DNA of 64,000 nucleotides. Source: Bryobacterales bacterium F-183 (lineage in GTDB: Bacteria; Acidobacteriota; Terriglobia; Bryobacterales; Bryobacteraceae). Location: the NCBI GenBank assembly GCA_016865505.2, contig AP025252.1, forward strand, positions 992,001 to 1,056,000. The letters run 5' to 3'. A program made the translations under genes and the position numbers. Each line of letters opens with the position of its first letter. Position 1 is the stretch's first letter. Under the pieces are notes generated by a model. That model ran no database searches, had not been told where the DNA came from, and saw nothing but the letters and a program-made list of their open reading frames with translations. Positions 31,297 to 32,622 of the stretch are shown here, piece by piece.

Positions 31297-32073
31297 ATGA
31301 GCTACCAACCTTTTGATTTGTCCGGCAAGACTGCCGTTGTCATCGGCGGTACGTCCGGCATCGGGCTCGCCATTTCTGCCGGACTCGCCGAGGCCGGCGC
31401 TGACGTCATCCCTTCCAGCCGGCGCCAGAGCGAAGTCGATGCCGCAGTTGCACTGGTGGAATCCAAGGGCAAGTTGTCGCTCGCCCAGACGTCCGATGTC
31501 GGCGACCGGAAGTCGCTTGAGGCGCTGCTGGAAGAGTCCGTCAACAAGTTCGGCAAGGTGGACATCCTGGTGAACTGCGCGGGCCGTACCAAGCGCACGC
31601 CTACTCTGGATGTCAGCGAAGAGGAGTGGAATGGGATTCTGGACACCAACTTGACCGGGATCTTGCGGTCCTGCCAGGTGTTCGGCGGGCATATGCTGGA
31701 GCGCGGTTACGGGCGGATTGTGAACATCGCGTCGCTTTCGTCTTTTGTCGCGCTGTTCGAAGTGGCGGCGTATGCGGCGAGCAAGGCGGCGGTGGCGTCC
31801 TTAACCAAATCGCTAGCAGTGGAGTGGGGGTCAAAAGGGGTGTTGGTGAATGCCATTGCGCCCGGTGTGTTTCCTACTCCGCTCAACGCGTCCTTGCTGA
31901 ACGGGACCCCCCGTGGGCAGGAATTTATCACGCGCACTCCACTTAAGCGTTTTGGTAAGACTGAGGAGCTTGCAGGGGCTGCAATCTTCCTGTGTTCGGA
32001 CGCAGCGAGCTACGTCAACGGTGAAGTGATCGCCGTGGACGGCGGGTTCCTGGCGAGTGGCGTGAATCAATAA
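31297..32073 (+). CDS. SDR-family oxidoreductase (KduD/FabG-like)
   Basis: The 258-residue classical short-chain dehydrogenase has the cofactor motif TAVVIGGTSGIGLA (TGxxxGxG-type with IGG), NCAG near residue 90, the catalytic Ser in NIASLSS and the YAASK Tyr-Lys pair, and the C-terminal YVNGEVIAVDGGF. It reduces or oxidises a carbonyl/alcohol using NAD(P)H. It resembles gluconate 5-dehydrogenase/2-deoxy-D-gluconate 3-dehydrogenase, but the substrate is not determinable. It stands alone, followed by a strong hairpin. Confidence 0.9.
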   Translation: MSYQPFDLSGKTAVVIGGTSGIGLAISAGLAEAGADVIPSSRRQSEVDAAVALVESKGKLSLAQTSDVGDRKSLEALLEESVNKFGKVDILVNCAGRTKRTPTLDVSEEEWNGILDTNLTGILRSCQVFGGHMLERGYGRIVNIASLSSFVALFEVAAYAASKAAVASLTKSLAVEWGSKGVLVNAIAPGVFPTPLNASLLNGTPRGQEFITRTPLKRFGKTEELAGAAIFLCSDAASYVNGEVIAVDGGFLASGVNQ

Positions 32074-32081
32074 AGCCGTCG

Positions 32082-32118
32082 GAAAAAGGAAAAGCCGGTG
32101 ACTTCTCGTCACCGGCTT
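32082..32118 (-). terminator. Terminator of the micropeptide transcript, also useful to the SDR gene
   Basis: An 11-bp perfect stem (arms 32092-32102 and 32108-32118, loop TTCTC) is followed on the minus strand by TTTTCCTTTTT. It lies 28 bp past the micropeptide stop and 19 bp past the SDR stop. On the plus strand the tail is poor in T, so the minus orientation is the better one. Confidence 0.85.
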
Positions 32119-32146
32119 GTATTCCAGATAACTCAGCGAGGGGGTA

Positions 32147-32197
32147 TTAGTCACCCCAGATCGCGTTACCGGACTTCACGTTCGACTTGATTTTCAT
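32147..32197 (-). CDS. 16-residue micropeptide, possible RiPP-type precursor or signalling peptide
   Basis: The minus strand encodes MKIKSNVKSGNAIWGD. Everything a gene needs is present: a promoter at 32250-32278, a Shine-Dalgarno AAAGGAG about 11 nt before the ATG (with a second purine run GAAGGG closer), and a strong terminator 28 bp after the stop. The peptide is basic at its N-terminus (K2, K4, K8), lacks Cys, and ends Ile-Trp-Gly-Asp. A Lys-rich start with Asn-Val-Lys-x-Gly and one Trp is reminiscent of very short radical-SAM or other RiPP substrates, but I cannot name a family and no maturation enzyme is adjacent. It is too short for normal gene callers. Confidence 0.6.
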   Translation of the reverse strand: MKIKSNVKSGNAIWGD

Positions 32198-32249
32198 GTG
32201 GAACCCTTCTCCTTTGGTCGTGAGATAGGCTGGTGCGGCAGCCAGTTCC

Positions 32250-32278
32250 AGTATACGCAGAAGACCTTAGGGCGTCCA
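32250..32278 (-). promoter_or_regulatory. Sigma70-type promoter of the micropeptide gene
   Basis: Read on the minus strand, TGGACG (32278-32273; 4/6 to TTGACA) and TATACT (32255-32250; 5/6 to TATAAT) are separated by exactly 17 bp, 53 bp upstream of the micropeptide ATG. Confidence 0.6.
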
Positions 32279-32337: not shown

Positions 32338-32369
32338 AAAAAAAACCGGTGAGGGTTGCTCACCGGTTT
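32338..32369 (-). terminator. Minus-strand rho-independent terminator with no gene upstream
   Basis: An 11-bp perfect stem (arms 32343-32353 and 32359-32369, loop GGTTG) is followed on the minus strand by eight T. No ORF with a ribosome site precedes it on that strand between 32370 and 32620. The transcript it ends may be a small RNA or a divergent transcript from the regulator promoter. Confidence 0.75.
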
Positions 32370-32622
32370 AAAAATCGATTCAAGCGGGGGGTGCCGACGA
32401 ATCGTTCAGAATGGAGTCGCAAAAAACTTTTGAAGTAACTATAGGTGCACGTGACGATCCAAAGTGGGTACTTAGTGCTGATAGCCTCCAAATCAAGGGT
32501 TTAGGACGAACCTAGCGATATGGCTAAGTTAGAAGCCTTAGCATTTTGGCTAATTTCAAAAAATACCTATCATCCAAAACGTTAATCTATCCCCTGAATA
32601 TTGCGGTATACTTGCCTCATTA
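32370..32622. other. A/T-rich intergenic region with inverted repeat, no protein gene seen
   Basis: This stretch is clearly richer in A+T than its surroundings. It holds an inverted repeat GCTAAG/CTTAGC (32523-32528 and 32537-32542) with a third related half-site a few bases on (GGCTAA), which suggests a protein-binding site. A TATACT at 32607-32612 could be the -10 of the downstream regulator; that would give an almost leaderless mRNA. No RNA family is recognised. Confidence 0.4.

Follow-up and report, generated by a model that had tools for sequence, protein, structure and literature searches.

A conserved family of very short peptide genes in Bryobacteraceae, with probable C39-type export under FHA/sigma54 control

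The window gene and its surroundings

The window is a stretch of 64,000 nucleotides (C1:992001-1056000) from the 6.28 Mb genome of Bryobacterales bacterium F-183 (G000). On its minus strand a sigma70-like promoter, a Shine-Dalgarno sequence, a 16-codon ORF and a terminator follow one another (Table 1), and all four lie where a preliminary description of this DNA had placed them; the stem of the terminator, its T-rich tail and its distance from the stop codon agree with that description as well. Gene finders miss the gene because it is so short. Taken alone, the promoter match is weak, with two such sites in 2.5 kb against a mean of 1.3 in shuffles. In G001, a genome of the same genus, TGGAC, TATACT and the 17-nt spacing are retained and the spacer sequence is altered, while the ORF is identical at 51 of 51 bases although the region as a whole differs. 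The window peptide gene looks real.

Table 1. Features of the peptide gene and its upstream region (positions are those of the window)
Feature	Position	Strand	Remarks
Peptide ORF MKIKSNVKSGNAIWGD, 16 codons and stop	32197-32147	-	Conserved in the family; same in G001
Proposed leader (residues 1-10 of MKIKSNVKSGNAIWGD) and proposed product (NAIWGD)	32147..32197	-	Putative split
Shine-Dalgarno AAGGAG	32214-32209	-	
Predicted hairpin GGCTG/CAGCC at message start	32228..32243	-	Identical in G001
Sigma70-like promoter TGGACG-17-TATACT	32278-32250	-	Hexamers kept, spacer changed in G001
Intrinsic-terminator-like hairpin, 11 pairs, T-rich tail	32118-32092	-	Begins 28 nt past the peptide stop
Next gene downstream of the peptide gene	31297-32073		Convergent with the peptide gene
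FHA-GAF-sigma54-activator (AAA+)-Fis-type HTH protein, 640 aa	32623..34545	+	Pfam; divergent from the peptide gene
Proposed activator sites (binding predicted)	32512..32553	-	Arms kept, spacers changed in G001
Dyad TTAGC-N6-GCTAA	32553-32538	-	Also before the peptide arrays of G000 and G001
Dyad TTAGC-N6-GCTAG	32527-32512	-	
Dyad GCTAAG-N8-CTTAGC	32542-32523	-	
Sigma54-like -24/-12 site TGGATCGTCACGTGCA	32461-32446	-	9/12 consensus letters; 8/12 in G001
Probable short transcript (small RNA or attenuated leader)	32343..32436	-	Start inferred from the sigma54-like site
Second terminator, ending the short transcript	32369-32343	-	Conserved in G001

The 152-nt peptide message folds better than shuffles (z = -4.4), much of this being due to the terminator hairpin, and on this ground the unit might be read as an RNA gene in which the ORF is incidental. 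We regard this as scarcely conceivable: variation across genera is of the codon type, and a DNA similarity search matches the unit in only two of 61 genomes, its own and G001, whereas the peptide reaches 26 of 237. A scan of the window against Rfam returned nothing at gathering score. The peptide had also been proposed as a regulatory-leader product, a use that finds no support in the window copy, since this is followed by a terminator and then by a convergent gene.

Upstream of the peptide gene, the window holds in order a sigma54-like site, a block conserved in G001, a terminator and the sigma70-like promoter. Since the terminator stands between the two promoter-like elements, the transcript from the first would either be a small RNA or serve the peptide message as an attenuated leader. 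Its region folds with a z of -4.2 and includes a C-rich block of ~52 nt that is identical in G001; the probable small RNA is absent from Rfam and, among the collected loci, turned up only in this genus. Direct sigma54 control of the window gene was considered and dropped, as no GG-N10-GC site lies within 150 nt; the 9/12 site is 264 nt upstream with the terminator in between.

A peptide family conserved in sequence

Searches of 237 genomes of the host's taxonomic family bear out a conserved short peptide gene. All patterns combined, the family is present in the 26 genomes mentioned above and follows the pattern M-K-x-K-[ST]-x-[VI]-K-[AS]-G, 2-9 variable residues, Trp-Gly-x and stop. A strict leader pattern, with only codons 2-4, 6-8 and 10 fixed, gave 12 matches in 11 of the 237 genomes and none in the reversed control. 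Eleven of these lie in frames of only 16-50 residues, and the remaining one (G274) in a frame of 240. In all 11 true ORFs the unfixed codon 5 encodes Ser or Thr, with Ser written both as AGC and as TCG, and the unfixed codon 9 encodes Ala or Ser. A looser leader pattern combined with a Shine-Dalgarno sequence matched 23 of the 237 genomes (control 0), and 38 distinct ORFs remained once G105 and G121, judged false, and two double rows were dropped. Trp is third from the end in 28 of these 38, and is no part of that pattern. Finally, searching with a Trp-type 16-mer pattern returned 33 matches from 19 of the 237 genomes (control 0), one of which (G033) was set aside.

The collected Trp-type set comprises 45 ORFs encoding 36 distinct peptides in 20 genomes, many of them in tandem. 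Gly10 and the Trp are invariant, position 9 (-2 relative to the proposed cut) is Ala in 35 and Ser in 10, and Gly precedes the last residue in 41. Since the search patterns themselves impose part of the leader conservation in this set, we place weight on the free positions, on the Trp recovered by leader-only searches and on silent differences. Four peptides are each encoded by two to three DNA versions that differ only silently. Because copies differ in this way, the peptide itself is what is conserved. Among 28 distinct 16-mer sequences, the free leader codons 3 and 6 take only V/T/I and K/N/R, with a pN of 0.34 that is not far under the pS of 0.41, and core codons 11-13 vary widely (pN 0.58, pS 0.60). 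The preliminary description had looked to related genomes for conservation of the peptide with codon-type substitution, and this is what they hold. Neither Pfam nor NCBIfam yielded a family above cut-off for the peptide or its long relatives, and searches of the open-licence literature for the peptide strings and the system found no paper on it, the one string match being to a paper on histidine-triad hydrolases; the family is apparently undescribed.

Paralogues, also anticipated earlier, exist in the host itself. Four more copies, three of MKIKSKIKAGDEGFKITWGT and one variant, start between C1:1515428 and C1:1515830, 490 kb from the window gene, and G001 likewise carries four copies at one place. 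A terminator-like hairpin lies within 130 nt after 10 of the 45 Trp-type ORFs against 0.5 in shuffles, and copies within arrays mostly have none. At one locus (L072 6979, G128), an ATG copy adjoins a second copy with a Shine-Dalgarno sequence and a TTG start, (L)KIKSNVKAGQSIWAS, so that ATG-only patterns undercount the family.

Other genomes contain longer relatives that share the same start and carry up to 13 KAGG...NHNQ modules. The repeats are ~20 residues long ([VL]KS.VKAGG...NHNQ; 13 repeats give 270 aa) and occur at L060 4481, 7676 and 10866, L061 5294, L062 631 and 3536, L028 8958 and L070 5442; several adjoin Ser/Thr kinase genes. Tails can also differ, as at L068 6992 (G220), where the same leader precedes MKVQTGVKAGFNPQPDPPGDHKS in a locus that also has HlyD and C39-ABC genes. 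In genus g5 (L025 6967, L026 1256, L027 6634) leader peptides end in basic or Gln-rich tails, not in Trp-Gly-x, and two of the three adjoin Ser/Thr kinase genes.

In 399 genomes sampled from the class, two pattern matches fell outside the taxonomic family, and a phylum sample of 297 genomes gave two leader-like short peptides from other families of the phylum, MKIRTGIKAGCPRNDDDGGGE (L073, G554) and MKVKTKVKAGLAPTCGCGARGKGDHKPSYLGRHTR (L074, G753); the Trp type was found in 0 of 178 other genomes of a phylum sample. The strict Trp pattern hit two stretches in 84,980 species genomes, namely G001 and G075. Viral contigs gave no match to the strict Trp pattern, and tblastn against plasmids gave one weak match (E = 3) and none in a second search.

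Exporters, activators and promoters near the peptide genes

The gene was first described as isolated. This holds for the window read alone; in relatives, however, the peptide genes have recurrent neighbours, and one of these, the FHA-GAF-sigma54 activator, adjoins the window gene too. Genome comparison shows that the peptide, conserved at the protein level, recurs beside a C39-ABC exporter, mostly with HlyD, or beside this activator. When the neighbours at 28 loci were clustered, C39-ABC/ABC proteins and Ser/Thr kinases were each found at eight loci, HlyD at six, and the activator, a hybrid histidine kinase with propeller repeats and one further large protein family at five each. Ser/Thr kinases are common in these bacteria, and the kinase neighbours were therefore given little weight.

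Among 25 Trp-type loci, the activator is divergent from the peptide in nine, the window included, which span five genera; L136, L138 and L139, first found by the Trp pattern, have this arrangement. A peptidase-C39 ABC exporter adjoins the peptide in six and a kinase in two, and 10 have no activator, exporter or kinase. Some of the latter are on short contigs, and since several loci are contigs of only 3.5-9 kb, missing neighbours are no proof of absence. In seven genomes, chosen with the loci known, the best full-length activator homologue is at the peptide locus; a second full-length homologue (G035:C17) has no peptide beside it.

A C39 domain (PF03412) is found in 89 of the 237 genomes. Fisher tests on the co-occurrence counts that follow, like the placement probabilities of the neighbours, take related genomes to be independent, an assumption that does not hold; the underlying lists were compiled by hand. 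The exporter type seen near the peptides, a hand selection of C39 matches that start at profile position 5-6, is present in 23 of 26 peptide genomes versus 14 of 211 others, and in 11 of 11 peptide genera versus 5 of 65 others, while any C39 match occurs in 24 of 26 versus 65 of 211. The peptide genomes without the exporter type are G075, G248 and G180, of which G180 has a C39 fragment and G075, 96% complete, has no C39 match. Among nine genomes overlooked by the leader pattern, three (G035, G222, G149) have a leader peptide at the exporter locus, and among 11 peptide-positive genomes only G181 does; a small-ORF search around ten exporter loci found no leader peptide.

The host encodes a single C39 protein (C1:89091-91691), adjoined by HlyD and a second ABC protein. 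This locus (C1:87-93 kb) is ~930 kb from the window gene and thus unlinked to it, and no peptide was found there. The catalytic residues Gln13, Cys19, His99 and Asp115 are the same in all 10 exporters aligned, the host's included. By sequence, PCAT1 matches the exporter with an E of 1e-42, outranked by several multidrug transporters whose similarity lies in the ATPase part. An AlphaFold model of the host exporter (pLDDT 74.8, pTM 0.56) has as its best fold match PCAT1 bound to substrate (6v9z; E = 4e-29). A precursor whose partner protein is encoded elsewhere in the genome had been foreseen, and the exporter fits that part.

It is very unlikely that the peptide instead acts inside the cell, with the activator or a kinase as a conceivable target, and that the exporter linkage reflects other cargo. 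Such a role would suit the atypical leader, the 19 of 25 Trp-type loci that have no linked exporter, and the recurrence of kinases and the FHA activator as neighbours. It accords poorly with the co-occurrence of peptide and exporter by genome and by genus, and with the gene order peptide-HlyD-C39ABC-ABC of genus g63, which is complete in L021 and the same in L022, L024, L067 and L072 within the reach of their contigs. The long KAGG/NHNQ relatives of L028 and L070, which adjoin the exporter, argue in the same direction.

Modification of the peptide before export, at the Trp or at the last Asp, Thr or Ser, would make it a RiPP, as had been envisaged in the preliminary description, and an invariant Trp and a Gly that precedes the last residue in 41 of 45 ORFs are compatible with this. 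In addition, a modifying enzyme could be encoded at a distance, as the exporter is in many genomes. A Pfam scan of 19 neighbour proteins revealed no radical-SAM or other modifying enzyme, and none is among the identified recurrent neighbours; we thus consider a modified product quite unlikely.

Many relatives carry predicted sigma54-type promoters and upstream dyads. Of the 45 Trp-type ORFs, 13 have within 150 nt a GG-N10-GC site that agrees with the consensus at 9 or more of 12 letters, against a mean of 0.63 and a maximum of 4 in 200 rounds of Markov resampling; among 150 other genes of the same loci, 3 have such a site. Of the 10 genes collected from genus g35, eight were examined, and seven of these have one or two CTATC-N6-GATAG dyads at 178-225 nt upstream together with a -24/-12 site at a distance of 59-69 nt. 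In five of the seven the dyad is doubled, with a spacing of 21 bp. The remaining gene, without a dyad, starts 137 nt past another. All 12 such dyads in 90,645 bases of this genus stand before these peptide genes.

The window genus (g1) has a different dyad, TTAGC-N6-GCTAA, which in G000 and in G001 occurs both in the gap from activator to peptide and ahead of the array, at no other place among 142 loci and in none of 100 shuffles of the window. The arrays have a -24/-12-like site that scores 8/12 in G000 and 7/12 in G001, with its ends kept and its middle changed, and RpoN is encoded in the host genome. Meanwhile, in genus g63 long perfect hairpins, such as GAGTTCTTGC...GCAAGAACTC, are located directly before the Shine-Dalgarno sequence of the L021, L022, L003/L020 and L024 peptide genes; their sequence differs and their place is constant.

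A proposed export system and its known counterparts

We consider it probable that these genes encode regulated, exported and very short peptide precursors with a 10-residue leader, C39 export and FHA/sigma54 control. Residues 1-10 would form the recognition leader, and the C39 domain would cut after Gly10. The released product, 5-12 residues long and with Trp as its antepenultimate residue, would leave through the C39-ABC/HlyD exporter, in the host presumably the one described above. The FHA activator, perhaps fed by Ser/Thr-kinase phosphorylation, would bind the dyads and turn on sigma54 transcription of the four-gene array (C1:1.5154-1.5158 Mb) and of the short transcript ahead of the window gene, which would additionally be served by its own sigma70-like promoter. 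Several observations run against this scheme, among them the 10 Trp-type loci with none of the three neighbours, the many exporter loci at which no leader peptide was found, the absence of a C39 match from G075 and the activator homologue G035:C17 with no peptide beside it. In addition, position -2 is Ala or Ser rather than Gly and -7 is Lys-like, and the nearest promoter of the window gene is sigma70-like, with a terminator separating it from the sigma54-like site.

The exported and cleaved product would act as a signal or a microcin. Cell-cell signalling, earlier named as a possible quorum role, is the likeliest use, and a small microcin is the main alternative. An antibacterial mini-microcin could take the same export route, its variable core reflecting competition and the activator timing its release. 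Parts of PMC10986499 and PMC7018657 describe C39 exporters with HlyD that also carry bacteriocins and microcins. The core codons, as variable at replacement as at silent sites, would be in keeping with such a role. Against it, the neighbour clusters contain no recurrent immunity-type gene, tandem copies often encode the same peptide and, at about six residues, the core would be unusually small for a microcin. We therefore judge a microcin unlikely and retain the signalling reading.

A bolder and tentative proposal is that the family constitutes a new communication system of this Acidobacteriota family, in which a phosphothreonine-fed FHA-GAF-sigma54 activator would control 16-residue pre-pheromones that yield hexapeptides with an invariant Trp. 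Cores and operator dyads would co-diverge by genus, and a sigma54-driven small RNA would have been added in the window genus.

Neighbourhood, co-occurrence and promoter layout connect a gene that annotation does not reach with a dedicated exporter and a signal-fed activator. If the scheme is correct, it sets a very low size limit for a C39 substrate and its leader, and the 16-residue precursors may be smaller than any other substrate so far put forward for such an exporter. It would also provide a simple motif for finding many overlooked peptides, and six-residue synthetic candidates that are directly testable as signals or antibiotics. To our knowledge, little is known about peptide signalling in Acidobacteriota. 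An apparently undescribed family of tiny peptides, probably trimmed and exported under a signal-responsive switch, may give access to chemical signalling in a phylum that is poorly known.

Similar to double-glycine/PCAT systems (PCAT1/CtA, ComAB, BlpAB, RtgAB), the family has a linked C39-ABC exporter, in 6 of 25 Trp-type loci, with catalytic residues kept and a PCAT1-like model. Its peptides share with double-glycine peptides a conserved N-terminal leader, variable C-terminal cargo, tandem or multiple precursors, Gly at -1 (45/45) and V, I, L or M at -4 (45/45, a position partly fixed by the patterns). By the canonical double-glycine leader rules, as set out in parts of PMC6959990 and PMC7018657, the family differs in that it has no Gly-Gly, Gly-Ala or Gly-Ser at the cut but Ala or Ser at -2, K, R, N or Q at -7 (45/45), and a leader that ends at -10 without the -12/-15 hydrophobics. 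The CtA leader is 24 residues long in the portion of PMC6959990 that treats it, whereas the leader here has only 10. The short cargo of 5-12 residues and the FHA-sigma54 control are further differences. From the non-canonical leader and the lack of a modifying enzyme among the 19 neighbours scanned, we therefore view this as an exported mini-peptide family that would work like double-glycine peptides and is not filed as such.

The exporter also resembles the NHLM/NHLP cassette (TIGR03796, TIGR03797), which has two ABC proteins, one with C39, plus HlyD. The L021 proteins are far below the cut-offs of these families, in that the C39-ABC protein best matches TIGR03796 among NCBIfam models with 192 bits against 853, and the second ABC protein scores 112 of 709 bits against TIGR03796/TIGR03797. 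NHLM/NHLP precursors have by definition a nitrile-hydratase or Nif11 leader, which our peptides lack.

PatS of Nostoc is similar in size to the peptides described here and has a C-terminal active pentapeptide. The pairing of a C39 exporter with short peptides that lack a typical leader recalls Nostoc HetC and its suggested cargo, PatS/HetN. HetC, as discussed in part of PMC10986499, is a Gram-negative C39 exporter thought to export leader-atypical short regulatory peptides, and raises the question of whether Gram-negative C39 exporters accept substrates with atypical signals. Unlike in Nostoc, several genomes have the peptide gene linked to that of the exporter, and no sequence similarity to HetC, PatS or HetN was seen.

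The activator has its own counterparts. FHA-domain sigma54 enhancer-binding proteins of Myxococcus xanthus were reportedly described by Jelsbak in 2005, and they share with our protein the combination of FHA with a sigma54-activating AAA+ domain. Cascades of such enhancer-binding proteins act in multicellular development of M. xanthus, according to a section of PMC12288465. Unlike those proteins, the activator here adds a GAF domain and has a fixed place beside mini-peptide genes.
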